This document shows, one piece after another, positions 1-39,186 of a stretch of DNA of 40,912 nucleotides; the first letter of the stretch is position 1; each line of letters starts with the position of its first letter. The notes beneath the pieces were generated by a model that worked only from the letters and a program-made list of their open reading frames with translations, was not told the origin of the DNA and did not search any database. The DNA lies in contig NZ_ATVC01000018.1 of NCBI RefSeq assembly GCF_000420525.1, positions 1 to 40,912 on the forward strand, written 5' to 3'. The position numbers were made by a program, and so were the translations under genes. The stretch comes from Aquaspirillum serpens DSM 68. Lineage in GTDB: Bacteria > Pseudomonadota > Gammaproteobacteria > Burkholderiales > Aquaspirillaceae.

Positions 1-533
1 CCCAGCACAGGGCCGGATGCCACGGGTTCAACGTCGCCCTGCTCGACGACGAGGTTGAAAAACCATTGCCCCTTGCGCAAGACCAGCTCCGCCTCCTTCG
101 GCTGGCCGGATTCGAGGATGCGGCGCTGGTGTTCGCCGAGACGCAACGGCACGGTGATACGCCCATCGAGGGTATAGAGCGAGACGGTCTTGCCTTTGAG
201 GGTGTAGGTGCGTTTGTCGAAGTGGACACTGGCGCGGTTGAAGCGAATGTCGGGAATGGGGGCATCCTTCCTGATGCGCCCGAGTTCTTTTTGTGCCTTA
301 TACGCCTTGCAGACCGAGAAGATGGCGTTGCAGCACATCTGGCTGCCCAGCGGCGTCGCTTCGCGCAGCATCGTATAGGTGCGCTGGTGCAGACCGACGC
401 GGTTATACAGACGGTGCTCGCGCACGATGGGAACAAGACGGTTGCAGGCGTCCGCATAGACCACTTGAAGTGCTGCAAGACGGCCCGCGTGTTCTGCCGT
501 CATATCAAGCCGAATCGACGCCGTGCGCATCAT
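1..533 (-). CDS. tnpB: TnpB-like RNA-guided nuclease/transposase accessory protein, partial (left edge)
   Basis: The reverse strand is open from an ATG at 533 to the left edge (about 177 codons), so this is the N-terminal part of a longer gene. The protein has the N-terminal layout of IS200/IS605 OrfB (TnpB): an Arg/His-rich start, a helical part with LREATPLGSQM, then a beta-rich stretch including TYTLKGKTVSLYTLDGRI and LRKGQWFFNLVVEQ. TnpB proteins are RNA-guided DNA endonucleases carried by these transposons. The RuvC catalytic residues would lie off the edge, so activity cannot be judged. No tnpA is seen on this side. The DNA is clearly more GC-rich (one 60-base line is 65 percent) than the genes that follow, which suggests a foreign origin. 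A second ATG follows directly at 530 with better spacing to AAGGG. Confidence 0.8.
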   Translation of the reverse strand, partial: MMRTASIRLDMTAEHAGRLAALQVVYADACNRLVPIVREHRLYNRVGLHQRTYTMLREATPLGSQMCCNAIFSVCKAYKAQKELGRIRKDAPIPDIRFNRASVHFDKRTYTLKGKTVSLYTLDGRITVPLRLGEHQRRILESGQPKEAELVLRKGQWFFNLVVEQGDVEPVASGPVL

Positions 534-630
534 CCCTTATCGCCTCTTGGTGACATACTCGGTATGCCGTTTGATAGACACAATTATGTTTCGTGACAAC
601 ATCAACCATACGTCACAGTTTATACCACAT

Positions 631-647
631 GGTGCGCTTCGCGCACC
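631..647. repeat. REP-like palindrome
   Basis: GGTGCGC-TTC-GCGCACC is a perfect 7-bp-arm inverted repeat in the gap between the TnpB gene and purN. It has no following T run, so it is not a standard terminator. Similar small palindromes occur elsewhere in the window (4118, 36541, 37050), so it may belong to a REP-like class. Confidence 0.55.
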
Positions 648-657
648 CGCAATTCCT

Positions 658-677
658 CCCGCGATTGAAATCGCGGG
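658..677. repeat. Hairpin resembling an IS200/IS605-type end, next to purN
   Basis: CCCGCGAT-TGAA-ATCGCGGG is a perfect 8-bp-arm inverted repeat ending 18 bp before the purN start. Read on the minus strand, it sits in a context (GGAAAC before, GGAGGAATT after) like the hairpin found at the end of many tnpB elements. It may instead be the structured leader of purN, whose GGAG ribosome site (687-690) follows it directly. The assignment as a transposon end is an inference. Confidence 0.4.
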
Positions 678-695
678 TTTCCTTGCGGAGATTCT

Positions 696-1289
696 ATGAA
701 GAATGTTGTGATTCTGATTTCTGGTCGTGGTTCGAATATGCAGGCCATCGTGGACGCGCAAATCAGCGGTGCCCAAATTGCAGCGGTGATTTCGAACCGA
801 CCCGATGCCGCCGGTTTGGCTTGGGCTGCTGCGCGAGGTATCGCGACTGCGGTAGTTGACCATAAAGCATTCTCGAGCCGCGAAGGGTTTGATCAAGCCT
901 TGGCAGATTGTATCGACAGCTATCAACCCGATTTGGTGGTGTTGGCTGGCTTTATGCGTATTCTGACCCCCGAGTTTACCCGTCACTACGAAGGACGGAT
1001 GTTAAATATCCACCCTTCCCTGCTGCCGGCTTTCCCTGGGCTGCATACCCATGAACGAGCGATTGCCGAGGGTTGTAAAGTGGCTGGTTGTACCGTGCAT
1101 TTTGTGACTGCCGAGTTGGATCATGGCCCCATTGTTGCGCAGGGGGTGGTGAATGTGGCGGATGATGAAGATGCCGATAGTTTGGCGGCTAAGGTCTTAA
1201 AAATTGAACATCAGCTGTATCCACAAGCGGTGGCTGATTTTGTTGCAGGGCGTTTGCAGATTCGCGGCAATCGAGTTGTGATGGTATAG
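696..1289 (+). CDS. purN: Phosphoribosylglycinamide formyltransferase
   Basis: PurN transfers a formyl group from 10-formyl-THF to GAR in purine synthesis (cytosol). The 197-aa protein starts with the phosphate-binding loop SGRGSNMQA (residues 9-17). It carries the catalytic set Asn104, His106 (NIHPSLLPAF) and Asp142 (ELDHGPI) at the expected spacing, and its length is normal for the family. The ATG is preceded by GGAG 5 bases upstream. The next gene, for a DUF3108 protein, starts 11 bases after the stop on the same strand, so they are probably co-transcribed. The upstream gap holds two palindromes and abuts a TnpB gene, so the natural purN promoter region may have been altered by the mobile element. 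Confidence 0.97.
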   Translation: MKNVVILISGRGSNMQAIVDAQISGAQIAAVISNRPDAAGLAWAAARGIATAVVDHKAFSSREGFDQALADCIDSYQPDLVVLAGFMRILTPEFTRHYEGRMLNIHPSLLPAFPGLHTHERAIAEGCKVAGCTVHFVTAELDHGPIVAQGVVNVADDEDADSLAAKVLKIEHQLYPQAVADFVAGRLQIRGNRVVMV

Positions 1290-4161: not shown

Positions 4162-5580
4162 TTACTGTTTTGCTGGACTGGTGTTTTTGCTTTCCAGAAT
4201 GCGTTGCACCTTGAGGATATTTAAGGCCTGACCCAACTGATTATCCGTTTTTGGATTCGGGTCACGCGGATTGACGGTGGATTCTGGTTTATCCTCTTTT
4301 TGTTCCACCGGTGTTAACGGCGTAACCGATTTTGGAGCTGATTTATCACTTGGGTTGCTTAAGTGATGTTCTAAATCGGCCTCGCGTAAACGCAATGGGG
4401 TTTGGGGGCTTGCCGCCGCTTTTTGTGTGGTTTGTTCTTCTACTACGACATCCGGCTCAATCCCTTTTGCCTGAATAGAACGGCCATTGGGGGTGAAATA
4501 ACGTGCTGTGGTTAATTTAATCCCACCAGCAGATCCCAACGGCAGAATCGACTGCACAGAGCCTTTACCAAAGGTTTGCACCCCGACTACCACCGCTCGC
4601 TTATGGTCTTGCAAGGCCCCTGCCACAATTTCAGATGCCGAAGCTGTTCCAGCATTCACCAACACCACCAGTGGTATATCACGCATTTCCGCAGGTAAGC
4701 GATTTAACGGATCTTCGCCTTTCCGGCTGTAATTTTGTACCGAGGCGGTCAGGCGCATTTTGGCATCGGGGGCGCGGCCTTCGGTGTAAACCACCAGCGC
4801 ATCTTTTGGCAAAAATGCTGCCGATACGCCCACTGCTGCATTGAGTAAACCACCCGGATCATCACGCAAATCAATAATTAACCCTTTGAGTGGTTTCTTA
4901 TTGTCTTTTGACACGGATACTAAGGCATCGACCAGATTTTCAACGGTGTGTTCTTGGAACTGCGCCACGCGCACATAGCCGTAGTCGGGCTCTAATAATT
5001 TCCAACGCACACTCTTGGTTTTGATAATGGCGCGGGTAATTTGTACGGTGAAAGTGCGATTCTCACTCTTACGGGCAATGGTCAGGGTAATTTTTGTCCC
5101 CGGCTTGCCGCGCATTTTTTTCACTGCATCGGTGGTTGACAGCCCACGCGCCGAGGTTTCATCAATTTTGACAATCAGATCACCACTTTTCAGGCCCGCA
5201 CGGAAAGCAGGGGTATCTTCAATCGGGGCAATGACTTTAATAAAACCGTCTTCCGAACCAATTTCAATCCCAAGACCACCAAACTCGCCCTGTGTGCCTT
5301 CTCGTAATTCTTTGTAGGCTTCAGGGTCTAAATAGGCAGAATGGGGATCAAGCCCAGTCAACATGCCATTGATCGCTTCGTTAATCAGTTTTTTATCTTC
5401 AACCGGTTCAACATAATCTTGTTTGATGCGGCCAAACACTTCGGCAAAGGTACGCAGCTCATTCAATGGCAAAGGTGCACTGGCTTCGCGTTCTGCCACT
5501 GCAGACACGCTCATCGTGAGCACCGCACCGAGTACGGCCCCACCCGTCACCAAAGCAAAGGTATTGCGTAAATTCGACAT
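4162..5580 (-). CDS. ctpA: S41 family carboxyl-terminal processing protease
   Basis: This is a periplasmic Ser/Lys-dyad protease that trims envelope proteins and, in several species, controls murein hydrolases. The 472-aa form starting at 5580 (MSNLRNTF) has an N-terminal signal or anchor segment (about 6-28), a PDZ domain (about 95-180) and the S41 core. Catalytic Ser314 lies in GTASASE and Lys339 in FGKGSVQ, 25 residues apart as in known CTPs. The tail from about 400 is charged and low in complexity. An upstream ATG at 5619 would overlap envC, but AAGGA lies 7 bases before 5580, so I prefer the latter. It lies 23 bp after envC, in a conserved gpmI-envC-ctp order. Its last 13 codons are duplicated downstream. 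Confidence 0.95.
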   Translation of the reverse strand: MSNLRNTFALVTGGAVLGAVLTMSVSAVAEREASAPLPLNELRTFAEVFGRIKQDYVEPVEDKKLINEAINGMLTGLDPHSAYLDPEAYKELREGTQGEFGGLGIEIGSEDGFIKVIAPIEDTPAFRAGLKSGDLIVKIDETSARGLSTTDAVKKMRGKPGTKITLTIARKSENRTFTVQITRAIIKTKSVRWKLLEPDYGYVRVAQFQEHTVENLVDALVSVSKDNKKPLKGLIIDLRDDPGGLLNAAVGVSAAFLPKDALVVYTEGRAPDAKMRLTASVQNYSRKGEDPLNRLPAEMRDIPLVVLVNAGTASASEIVAGALQDHKRAVVVGVQTFGKGSVQSILPLGSAGGIKLTTARYFTPNGRSIQAKGIEPDVVVEEQTTQKAAASPQTPLRLREADLEHHLSNPSDKSAPKSVTPLTPVEQKEDKPESTVNPRDPNPKTDNQLGQALNILKVQRILESKNTSPAKQ

Positions 5581-35901: not shown

Positions 35902-36519
35902 TCATCTTATTTGTCGAACAGCTGGAGATGATGGTTTTACGCGTTTAGGGGGCGAGGGGGGCAGCAAAGTCTGTTTTTCGCTGGCAGAGAGTTCGCGCCA
36001 TGCGCCCAAGGGCAAATCTGCTAACCGCAATTCACCAATCGCAACCCGAACCAAGCGCAAAGTAGGTAGCCCAACTTTGGCAGTCATCCGCCGTACTTGG
36101 CGGTTTTTGCCTTCTTTCAAGATGATTTCTAGCCACGAGGTGGGGATATTTTTGCGAAACCGCACCGGCGGTTGCCGTGGCCACAGCGTGGGTTCTGCGA
36201 TCTGTCGGGCTTGGGCGGGTTGTGTCACAAAGTCGCCTAAATCGACGCCTTGTTGTAGTTGGGTGATTTGTTGTGGCGAGGGGATGCCCTCCACTTGCAC
36301 CCAATAGGTTTTGGCTTGTTTGAAACGGGGGTGTGCAATCAGATGTTGTAACGGGCCATCATCGGTGAGAAGTACCAAGCCTTCGCTATCGGTATCGAGG
36401 CGGCCAGCGGGATAGACTTTTGGCACAGGGACGTAGTCGGCTAGGGATTGGTGGGGAGGTGATGGGCTAAATTGGCAAATCACGCCGTAGGGTTTGTTGA
36501 GTAGGATGACTTTTGACAT
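35902..36519 (-). CDS. rluE: 23S rRNA pseudouridine synthase (RluE/RsuA family)
   Basis: This enzyme converts a uridine to pseudouridine in rRNA. The 205-aa form starting MSKVILLNKPYGVICQF has no S4 domain and has catalytic Asp42 in AGRLDTDSEGLVLLT. It also has KTYWVQVEGIP and the RNA-binding motif LKEGKNRQVRRMT, as in RluE (U2457 of 23S rRNA). The tail is basic. ATG 36519 is chosen over an upstream one at 36564 that would run through a palindrome. The ribosome site is weak. Confidence 0.93.
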   Translation of the reverse strand: MSKVILLNKPYGVICQFSPSPPHQSLADYVPVPKVYPAGRLDTDSEGLVLLTDDGPLQHLIAHPRFKQAKTYWVQVEGIPSPQQITQLQQGVDLGDFVTQPAQARQIAEPTLWPRQPPVRFRKNIPTSWLEIILKEGKNRQVRRMTAKVGLPTLRLVRVAIGELRLADLPLGAWRELSASEKQTLLPPSPPKRVKPSSPAVRQIR

Positions 36520-36540
36520 AGGAAGATTTATTGATGGTGC

Positions 36541-36559
36541 ATCACCCCTACGGGGTGAT
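36541..36559. repeat. Palindrome upstream of rluE
   Basis: ATCACCCC-TAC-GGGGTGAT is a perfect 8-bp-arm inverted repeat between the C39-like gene and rluE, with further near-pairing outside (GTGC/GCAC). No T run follows. It is one of the two palindromes framing the C39-like gene. Confidence 0.65.
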
Positions 36560-36601
36560 AGCACTGTAGGGATAGAGATTTAATATGCTTTAGAGAGTGA
36601 T

Positions 36602-37015
36602 CTACGGAATCACAGTAATAAACCATTTGGGGTGCATCGCGTTGAAATCTTCACGAATATTGAATGATAGATAGCTGGCTGAATCCAATACGTAAGGTCT
36701 GCCGTTTATACGCTTGAACACAACCCAATGCCAAAAGTCTCTACCTTCTTCCTGATAATGTTTGATCGAAAGTAAAGCGAGATCCGGCAATGTCTCCCAA
36801 GACTCAAAAGGTATTTCTTCAGGAGAAGTTTTGATGCCTGAACTCGATAACATGCGCCGTACGTACTGTGTATCTGACCATAGGGATTTATCCGAAGCAT
36901 ATATGCCCATAGCATTGGCTACAGTTTTCATCTCCGAATATGTTCTACCAAGAATGTTGGCAACTGATGCAATCCCACATCCGGAAATTTCTTCTTGAAT
37001 GATTGGTTTGAGCAC
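36602..37015 (-). CDS. Stand-alone C39-like papain-fold cysteine peptidase
   Basis: The 137-aa protein from the GTG at 37015 (AAGGAGGA 6 bases upstream, a very strong site) looks like a single C39-type domain. Gln7 lies six residues before Cys13 (QEEISGCGIASVANILG), His96 is in FWHWVVF and Asp111 in YVLDSAS. This is the full Gln-Cys-His-Asp set. C39 peptidases usually cut leader peptides at double-Gly sites as part of ABC exporters. Here there is no transporter, no signal peptide and no peptide substrate gene nearby. The DNA is more AT-rich than the neighbours (one 60-base line is 40 percent GC) and palindromes flank it, suggesting a later insertion between rluE and aceK. Confidence 0.75.
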   Translation of the reverse strand: MLKPIIQEEISGCGIASVANILGRTYSEMKTVANAMGIYASDKSLWSDTQYVRRMLSSSGIKTSPEEIPFESWETLPDLALLSIKHYQEEGRDFWHWVVFKRINGRPYVLDSASYLSFNIREDFNAMHPKWFITVIP

Positions 37016-37049
37016 TGAGTCCTCCTTAATCCATAATTTTTTCGCCCCG

Positions 37050-37076
37050 TAGGTTGGGTTGAACAAATCAACCCAA
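37050..37076. repeat. REP-like palindrome between aceK and the C39-like gene
   Basis: GGTTGGGTTGA-ACAAA-TCAACCCAACC is a perfect 11-bp-arm inverted repeat preceded by CGTA. Palindromes of the GTAGGTTGGGTT type are widespread repeats in proteobacteria. It may also end the aceK transcript, though no T run follows immediately (GTTTTT appears a few bases on, on the other strand). Confidence 0.7.
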
Positions 37077-37099
37077 CCACGTTTTTAAATAAAAAACGA

Positions 37100-38848
37100 T
37101 CAAGCAAACTGATGACAGAAGCGCAAGGCTTGTGGATAGGGGTAAAAATCTTCCATGTGACCGGCGCGGATTTTCTGCTGTCGCTCAATCCAAAACTCTG
37201 CGCTTAACAAATCGCGGTGATACTTCAAGAACATCCGCCGAGTTTCATGATTACCCAGTAAGAACGTCGCAAACTCCTCGGGGAAGACATCATTTTTCGC
37301 TACCGGATACCACGGCTCGGACGACATCTCCATCTCCGGCGTGGGTGCCGGTGGAATTTTGCGGAAATTACAATCGGTCATGTACTCGATTTCATCGTAG
37401 TCATAAAAAATCACCCGACCATAACGCGTTACCCCGAAGTTCTTCCACAACATATCCCCCGGGAAAATATTCGCCGTCGCCAACTCACGAATCGCATCGC
37501 CATACTCTTTAATCGCGTGCTCTTTCTGCTCCGGTGTTGCATTCTCGATATACATATTCAACGGCTTCATCCGCCGCTCAATATACAAATGTTGAATCAC
37601 AATGCTGTCTTCGGTTTCTTCAATAATCGATGGTGCCAATGTGCGTAATTGCTCCATCAACTCAGGATCAAAACGGTGTTTCGGGAATGCAACATTTGAA
37701 AAATCCAACGTATCCGCCATCCGCCCAACCCGATCATGTTGCTTCACCAACTGATATTTGCGTTTCACCGTTGCATGATCGACTTCCTTACTGGTGCCAA
37801 ACACATCTTTAATAATCTTGAACACAAACGGGAATGACGGCAGTAAGAACACCAACATCACCAAGCCGGGAATGCCGGGGGCAATGACAAAGTTGTCGTT
37901 AGAGTGTTGCAGATGGTGCATAAAATCACGGTAAAAAATATTCTTACCCTGCTTTTGTAAGCCCAACATGGTGTAAAGCTCGGCCTTGGTTTTAGTCGGC
38001 AAAATCGAGCGCAAGAATTGCACATAACCCGAAGGCGCTTCCATTTCCACCAAGAAATACGCCCGTGAAAACGAGAACAACACGCCAATCCGCCACGCTT
38101 CTAACAACACCGTGTCTAAACGCAAACGGCCATCGTCGTTAAACATCACCGGCACGGCAAAGGGATAAACCTGTGCGCCGTTGACCACTTTGCCAATGAT
38201 CCACGCGGTTTTATTGCGATAAAAAGCCGAGTGCAGGATTTGGATTTGATAACTCACCTCGAGCTGTGGCCATGCGCCGCCAAGATGATTAAACACCGCT
38301 CGCATCACATGCTGAATATCACGCCGTAAATCAGCAAACGGCGTTTTCCAGCCAAAATCTTCGATGATTTTACGAATGGTGGCGCGTAGACCTGTTTTGG
38401 CAGGGTAGTAGCTGCGATAGGTGGGCGGGTCGGTTTCAATGTACTCGGTTGAAATCACCGGCCGCACAAAAATAAAATCGTTATTGAAGTAGTTACGATG
38501 CAAGATGCGAGTGAACACCGAGTTGAAAAAAGTCTCGGCCAATTCGGGTTGGCGATGATTCACCAACAAACCGATAAAGTGCAGCTTAACCTGCTGCCAC
38601 ACCGTTTCATCCAACGACTGCGCCTGAAATTCATCTTGTAAACGAGCGGTGGTTTCTGTCACACGCTCATCATAAAAATCAATCCGCTCTTGAATGGTGC
38701 GCTGCATCCCCATCCAATCTTGCGCTTCAAATTGCGACTTGGCACGTGCGCTACACTCACGGAACAAACGGTAATGACGATTAAAACCATCGACTAAAGC
38801 TTGGGCAATGTCCCATGCAATTGGATGGCGAGTGACAGCGATATTCAT
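37100..38848 (-). CDS. aceK: Isocitrate dehydrogenase kinase/phosphatase
   Basis: AceK phosphorylates and dephosphorylates Icd at its active-site Ser to steer carbon into the glyoxylate shunt. The 582-aa form starting MNIAVTRHPIAWDIAQAL fits the family (E. coli 578). The N-terminal regulatory part ends near 310. The kinase-like core has FSRAYFLVEMEAPSGYVQFL and the catalytic-loop region NIFPGDMLWKNFGVTRYG, followed by VIFYDYDEIEYM. ATG 38848 has AGAGGGG about 9 bases upstream; an earlier frame start at 39049 is rejected. It is divergent from icd, its substrate. aceA and aceB are not in the window. Confidence 0.97.
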   Translation of the reverse strand: MNIAVTRHPIAWDIAQALVDGFNRHYRLFRECSARAKSQFEAQDWMGMQRTIQERIDFYDERVTETTARLQDEFQAQSLDETVWQQVKLHFIGLLVNHRQPELAETFFNSVFTRILHRNYFNNDFIFVRPVISTEYIETDPPTYRSYYPAKTGLRATIRKIIEDFGWKTPFADLRRDIQHVMRAVFNHLGGAWPQLEVSYQIQILHSAFYRNKTAWIIGKVVNGAQVYPFAVPVMFNDDGRLRLDTVLLEAWRIGVLFSFSRAYFLVEMEAPSGYVQFLRSILPTKTKAELYTMLGLQKQGKNIFYRDFMHHLQHSNDNFVIAPGIPGLVMLVFLLPSFPFVFKIIKDVFGTSKEVDHATVKRKYQLVKQHDRVGRMADTLDFSNVAFPKHRFDPELMEQLRTLAPSIIEETEDSIVIQHLYIERRMKPLNMYIENATPEQKEHAIKEYGDAIRELATANIFPGDMLWKNFGVTRYGRVIFYDYDEIEYMTDCNFRKIPPAPTPEMEMSSEPWYPVAKNDVFPEEFATFLLGNHETRRMFLKYHRDLLSAEFWIERQQKIRAGHMEDFYPYPQALRFCHQFA

Positions 38849-39186
38849 AAAACAAGCACCCCTCTTTTGATTATTTGTTTTGTGTGTTGCGGACAGTAAA
38901 ATACCGTAAGCATAGCGCGTTGTCGCGATCTCAGGCAAAGATAGTTTTTCCAACCGCAAAAGCCAACGACTTGCTAGCAGGGGCGCGGGTTTTGCCGGAT
39001 AATAGAGGGGAACACGAAAAAATCTGATGTTTGGCCTACCCTGCCACATTATATTTTTTCCGCTTCGCCCGCACTTTCGTACCCTGAGGGCCGCTGGGCA
39101 CCGCCTCCTGGCGCCAAGCCGCCCCCACCCGGGCGCGGCTCCGTTCGAGCCACACCTTTAATAACTCAACTCAAGATGGAGTAGGC
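38849..39186. other. Divergent aceK-icd intergenic region with a GC-rich block
   Basis: No gene is seen in these 338 bp. The half near aceK is ordinary and must hold the aceK promoter. The stretch 39083-39152 is strikingly GC-rich, with short inverted repeats such as AGCCGC/GCGGCT, just before the icd leader (GGAG at 39177-39180). It could be a structured 5' leader of icd or an inserted repeat. Confidence 0.5.

Follow-up and report, generated by a model that had tools for sequence, protein, structure and literature searches.

A predicted free-standing C39-fold cysteine peptidase gene between aceK and rluE of Aquaspirillum serpens, probably derived from an integron gene cassette

In Aquaspirillum serpens DSM 68, a small gene lies between aceK and an rluE-like gene on contig NZ_ATVC01000018.1, of which positions 1 to 40,912 were analysed (40,912 nt, called the window here). 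What this gene encodes, and how it came to lie between these two neighbours, are the questions that the locus raises. A sequence-only reading of the window had described it as a small mobile cassette carrying a cysteine peptidase and bounded by two palindromes. The gene and its neighbours, all on the minus strand, are as follows.

35902..36519, minus strand: rluE-like pseudouridine synthase (PF00849), downstream neighbour; the name rluE is that of the sequence-only reading
36520..37099, minus strand: the whole aceK-rluE gap of 580 nt, containing the peptidase gene
36602..37015, minus strand: gene for a C39-fold cysteine peptidase of 137 aa, with GTG start, TAG stop, Gln7, Cys13, His96 and Asp111
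37100..38932, minus strand: aceK, isocitrate dehydrogenase kinase/phosphatase (PF06315, PF20423), upstream neighbour

The open reading frame of 137 codons and its four catalytic residues were borne out as claimed, and AAGGAGGA stands directly 5' of the GTG start. Among distinct homologs, Gln7, Cys13 and His96 are each kept in 82 of 83 and Asp111 in 83 of 83, a conservation that is partly ascertainment since the homolog scan selected for FWHW[VA]VF or GCGIA; we suspect that the single misses of Gln7, Cys13 and His96 stem from one misaligned row, L091. The gene is AT-rich, as had been noted, with a G+C content of 42.0% compared to 50.5% for the window (1.7% of 810 windows of 414 nt are equally low) and a GC3 of 0.41 compared to 0.52-0.55 in four neighbour genes. 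The observation from which this analysis started is confirmed as real, with only small corrections.

The window protein gave no match in Pfam, NCBIfam, PHROGs or PADLOC (E <= 1) and none among PDB sequences (E <= 10). Structure prediction and comparison with C39 peptidases, which the sequence-only reading had proposed as a check, gave an AlphaFold2 model from 86 sequences (mean pLDDT 96.2, pTM 0.90) that has the C39 papain-like fold. Using VIA-align, the model was matched to the ComA peptidase 3k8u with a Z of 12.5 (rmsd 3.2, 123 residues) and to PCAT1 with a Z of up to 12.3 (11.8 for 6mpz), followed at lower scores by YopQ (10.6), the papain-like toxin 9l5u (10.4), staphopain (10.0), Josephin (9.9) and the CDI toxin 8ssm (9.8). 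Foldseek scores were modest (best PDB E 1.2e-4, TM about 0.6), and its top match among viral models was a C39 domain protein of a Bacillus phage. The Cys, His and Asp align with those of 6mpz, and together with Gln they stand in the C39 order; the ComA alignment of HMMER sets the His one column off. The row L091 was left out of the structure alignments and of the tree. The C39 family profile PF03412 was matched by 68 of the 90 members of alignment A2 (E <= 1, best 4e-10), the window protein itself giving no match at E <= 1.

C39 peptidases are known chiefly as processing domains of peptide exporters. The window protein shares with the C39 domains of ComA and PCAT1 the fold, the Gln-x5-Cys motif and the His and Asp, at 11-21% identity. 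Unlike them, it is free-standing, a protein of 137 aa alone without a fused ABC exporter. There was also no PF03412 match (E <= 0.01) in the whole genome (119 contigs, 99.97% complete); for a C39 ABC exporter, this supports on the scale of the genome the absence of an ABC transporter noted earlier from the surrounding sequence. Values of dN/dS were 0.05-0.34 in 17 of 19 homolog pairs, the other two being saturated, which indicates that the family is under purifying selection. From the fold, the residues and this selection, we infer that the stand-alone C39-fold enzyme is an active cysteine peptidase; as the product of a single gene without an exporter, it is probably cytosolic.

To place the gene among its relatives, contigs were scanned for homologs. 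At least 164 relatives were found, of which the best 80 loci, 54-80% identical, were kept. These best 80 of at least 164 loci belong to Gamma- and Betaproteobacteria, apart from a few that come from Desulfobacterota-type lineages, Nitrospirota and a Kiritimatiellae MAG. By tree path, the nearest among the loci listed are in Halopseudomonas, Azovibrio, Pseudomonas and Nitrosomonas, in a tree with too few columns for most forks (44 of its 80 inner branches are open). The neighbours vary among the same 80 loci, the commonest other cluster occurring in eight while the family itself was called in 75, and no conserved partner gene was found in them. No match was found in phage records at E <= 0.1, and IMG/VR gave candidates, none of which was confirmed. 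An open-access literature search of titles and abstract openings found no publication naming the peptidase family. Of 72,556 plasmid records, 38 gave a match at E <= 0.01, and a single match exceeded 60% identity:

L003:5632-6411, plus strand: SH3-SH3-C39 protein of 259 aa on plasmid 1 of Pseudomonas aeruginosa RW109, with the peptidase C-terminal

The C-terminal part of the RW109 protein is 72% identical to the window protein. In contrast to the window protein, which has no such domain, its peptidase part is preceded by about 120 residues that include SH3-like domains (PF07653, E 8e-7, and a second stretch matching PF00018 at E 3e-4, under its cut-off). Similar in-frame SH3 sequence stands in front of the gene in five more Pseudomonas loci of the P. 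composti / P. alcaliphila kind (L063, L068, L074, L075, L079), and P. mendocina PSB00032 (L072) is without it.

The peptidase gene is absent from all five same-family genomes searched. The comparison of the rluE-aceK gap in relatives that had been suggested shows that in three of the five (G001, G002, G004) rluE follows aceK directly, 65-74 nt apart. In the other two, G003 and G005 (loci L101 and L098), rluE precedes aceK, so that the gene order has changed within the family. Within the order, 11 of 399 genomes had a match, counting the window's own; three of these matches are distant (25-28% identity) and two are fragments. Nitrosomonas, which GTDB places in Burkholderiales, is part of this order, and one genome of the order, G068, has a gene for the very protein that locus L019 of Nitrosomonas eutropha encodes. 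The view that a gene for a C39-like cysteine peptidase was acquired horizontally draws support from its fold, from its patchy distribution and from its absence in all five family relatives searched. For pairs that include the window gene, dS was saturated in two of three and 2.46 in the third; no recent donor can therefore be named, and either the arrival was not recent or the donor lies outside the sampled sequences. That the gene is instead an old one, inherited vertically and lost from relatives, would agree with dS values to the nearest homologs that are saturated or very high. We consider it barely credible in view of its absence from all five family genomes, its occurrence in 11 of 399 genomes of the order and the listing of its nearest rows in Halopseudomonas, Azovibrio, Pseudomonas and Nitrosomonas.

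If the gene was acquired, what carried it? The sequence-only reading had pointed to the two palindromes on either side of it.

36541..36559, no strand: palindrome between the gene and rluE, exact, with 8-bp arms and a 3-nt loop, single-copy in the genome
37052..37078, no strand: palindrome between aceK and the gene, with 11-bp arms and a 5-nt loop, terminator-like on the plus strand

The left palindrome was located exactly in that reading, whereas the right one had been placed at 37050-37076, two bases off. The two sequences are unlike each other, and neither has a second copy in the 2.6-Mb genome with up to two mismatches. Flanks containing the palindromes fold better than shuffled sequences (z-scores -4.2 and -5.0). 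Arms of these lengths are commoner in the window than in its shuffles: counting overlapping registers, 18 matches with arms of 8 were found compared to 2-5 in five mononucleotide shuffles, and five with arms of 11 compared to none in the five shuffles. Further hairpins with 11-bp arms lie at about 11954, 15736 and 40450. Being mutually unlike, single-copy and similar to other hairpins in the window, the palindromes are not supported as the boundaries of an element. In this genome there are no matching terminal inverted repeats that recur elsewhere, as a transposable element would have. A small MITE- or REP-like element could also have had as its ends either the palindromes or a 12-bp imperfect inverted pair at 36547-36558 and 37042-37053, which is 92% complementary. 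We regard such an element as very improbable: by our own estimate about one inverted 12-mer pair of this kind is expected by chance per 1 kb, the ORF list shows no apparent transposase ORF in the gap, and a search of the genome with the whole gap gave only short matches (E 0.7 or worse), with no further copies of palindromes or gap beyond the chance level.

A different boundary emerged from the homologs. Many of them have, 21-23 nt before the start codon (13 nt in Marinobacter), a GTT that resembles the R' core of an attC site, and the same homologs have a stop codon within the mirror image of this core, for example GTTATGCATTAAGG ... ATGCATAACAAGG. The consensus of R'' and R' and the crossover point were taken as given in passages of PMC12901181. 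The types of core differ (TTATGC and alike; TTAATTGG in Marinobacter), and every type has a partner that matches it. A strict attC scanner (RYYYAAC/GTTRRRY, inner boxes paired) accepted two of 86 rows, and Rfam, examined for attC, gave no match in eight loci. Because the core sites are degenerate (GTTATGC) and R' comes partly from the next cassette, the strict scanner was replaced by motif counts and a test of end pairing. Both were chosen after the sequences had been viewed and are not blind. They covered 77 rows, that is 76 loci and the window, after 12 of 88 loci had been left out: the fragments L013 and L014, the distant L016, the misaligned L091, the duplicates L019 and L096, the five Pseudomonas loci with SH3 sequence in front and, with these, L072, though its frame has no SH3. 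The upstream motif was found in 14 rows (1.2 expected), the stop motif in 16 (3.1 expected), both in seven and neither in 54. In 11 of the 77 rows, the reverse complement of the upstream 8-mer GTTxxxxx recurs exactly at the stop codon, and in each of the 11 the offset is -4. The corresponding number in 200 rounds of shuffled and permuted controls was 0.06 on average and 1 at most. The window is not among these 11.

In two loci the gene lies in an array beside an integron integrase gene. In Halopseudomonas pertucinogena (L114, one contig of 1,107,422 bases), co-directional genes come after intI (255-1220, minus strand), and GCGTTAGGC/GCGTTATGC sites occur at 4250, 5310, 5930 and 6619, the last directly before the family gene; the array genes include one GNAT acetyltransferase and one DUF3291. 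In Ca. Nitrotoga (L025), a TIR-domain gene comes after an integrase with 57% identity to another IntI, and next in order are the family gene and a gene of the glyoxalase family. A third locus, L032, has an intI fragment within 1.4 kb. At the level of genomes, intI over the cut-off was found in 29 of 45 carrier genomes (45 searched, of the 80 loci) compared to 62 of 150 genomes of the order, a weak link between the peptidase gene and intI that is confounded by taxonomy. Collectively, the sequences of these loci indicate that members of the peptidase family have repeatedly become the sole gene carried by an integron gene cassette.

We then asked what the window copy retains of a cassette. Two features were found at its ends.

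37016..37036, minus strand: cassette-type 5' leader TTATGGATTAAGGAGGACTCA with the ribosome site, starting where the leaders of cassette-borne homologs start, after the G of GTT
36602..36607, minus strand: possible relic of an attC R'' overlapping the stop codon, CCGTAG, at the same offset as in 11 cassette homologs

At the 5' end, 11 of 76 loci match the window leader in at least 11 of the first 15 nt, compared to 0.81 expected from shuffles; the match is inflated by the ribosome site, outside which the first nine bases lie. In eight of these 11 loci the G of GTT precedes the leader, whereas the window has an A before TT (GCGAAAAAA). The likeness of the window leader to the cassettes ends at the usual crossover point, so that the leader boundary TTATGG is kept, with A rather than G as the base before TT. 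This would put the left boundary of the cassette between 37036 and 37037, at a place enclosed by the two palindromes. At the 3' end, most cassette relatives have GCATAA where the window has CCGTAG. By our own count, CCGTAG forms four Watson-Crick and two G-T pairs with TTATGG; the case for a relic of R'' is weak because these two G-T pairs are needed and half of CCGTAG is set by the stop codon. No attC with R'' and R' was found 3' of the window gene, either by eye or with the strict scanner. No integron integrase (TIGR02249) over the cut-off was found in the window's own genome or in the five family relatives; the top match in its own genome has an E of 8e-9, below the cut-off, and none reaches E <= 1e-60. 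With no attC and no intI over the cut-off, the window copy is therefore called cassette-derived and not a cassette. Some relatives resemble integron cassettes, including those inserted at attG sites, in having R''/R' pairing, arrays adjacent to intI and a start after the G of GTT; of these features the window gene keeps the TTATGG side of the 5' boundary. The window copy differs from them in the missing attC, the A in place of G and a genome without intI over the cut-off.

We favour, with a probability of about 0.58, the reading that the gene for this C39-fold peptidase derives from a cassette, settled outside any integron and lost its attC. A cassette, or a copy of one, would have been inserted between aceK and rluE, presumably by an integrase; Loot et al. 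2024, as described in PMC12901181 and cited in PMC12690207 and PMC11023631, reported that cassettes can enter attG sites, which lie outside integrons. The 5' end would still lie at the cassette crossover point (TTATGG...), the attC that the 3' end presumably once had would since have been lost, and the gene would now be a fixed chromosomal one, translated from its own ribosome site. Against a cassette origin stand the 54 of 77 rows, the window among them, that show neither cassette end in the motif counts, as do the window gene's lack of an attC, the A before TT and the lack of intI over the cut-off. The same observations, that most homologous loci have no recognisable cassette end, that no attC and no intI over the cut-off were found and that there is no G at the left boundary, also suit a gene of the same cassette family that came with its leader only, by ordinary recombination (transformation, a phage or plasmid fragment), with no integrase acting in the lineage. 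We see this route as possible though doubtful: it is at the crossover base that the window gene ceases to resemble the cassettes, and recombination of another kind would end there only by coincidence. Of the small mobile cassette with a cysteine peptidase proposed from the sequence, the acquired C39-like gene is supported and the bounding palindromes are not, and the integron cassette system accounts better for the mobility. Neither of the outcomes that the sequence-only reading had named as refuting it was encountered in the fold comparison or the five family genomes.

If the cassette-derived reading is true, the window illustrates the appearance of a cassette that is gone from its integron and has lost its attC, a kind of gene that attC-dependent finders would overlook. 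A free-standing, widely shared and integron-carried version of the C39 peptidase is also a defined candidate for a new protease with a protective or regulatory role.

What might such a protease do? In 25 cassette-like loci, the genes beside the family gene are of mixed kinds, among them GFA, GNAT, antitoxin, glyoxalase and deformylase. When 90 proteins encoded by such neighbours were compared with PADLOC, five families were matched (E <= 1e-5), one protein each; four of the five matches are the single TIR protein of Ca. Nitrotoga L025, and all come from two proteins at most. A defence role was not adopted on the basis of these neighbours, two proteins at most of 90 being too few. A protective role, by cleavage of a foreign peptide or protein, is a low-confidence guess whose sole ground is the analogy with anti-phage cassettes; for Vibrio cholerae, a passage of a review gives at least 16 of 179 cassettes as active against phage when expressed (PMC12409362). 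Taken further, the guess would be that integrons have spread a new family of cytosolic C39-fold proteases, each encoded by a single gene, as a one-protein defence that cleaves an incoming phage protein or a double-Gly-type peptide toxin, with the SH3-like domains choosing the target in one Pseudomonas lineage and the window holding a cassette settled in the chromosome. As a whole, this picture is speculative and on balance unlikely.

Instead of a protective peptidase, the protein could be a toxin or deamidase with a papain fold, part of a system for interbacterial conflict. It shares its fold with the papain-like toxins, the toxin/immunity pair 9l5u (Z 10.4) and the CDI toxin 8ssm (Z 9.8); however, ComA and PCAT1 score higher. 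A polymorphic toxin would have a delivery domain and an immunity gene, whereas the window protein is one domain of 137 aa and no conserved partner gene or neighbour was found in the best 80 of at least 164 loci. We judge a toxin to be improbable.

The TIR-domain protein in the Ca. Nitrotoga array (L025:4100-4765, plus strand) matches PF13676 with an E of 3e-15 and the ThsB model of PADLOC with an E of 4e-119, and is possibly a Thoeris-type protein carried as an integron cassette. The plasmid matches other than RW109 (L004-L007 and others) represent a C39-like family that is further removed, with about 25-29% identity where the sequences align. Its genes are on large plasmids of Pseudomonas and on some of E. 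coli, often amid short hypothetical genes. A site-specific integrase is near the distant homolog in L004, L005 and L007, and on the E. coli plasmid pP11b (L006:209-4091) the distant homolog and its neighbours form a mirrored (inverted) duplicate block.
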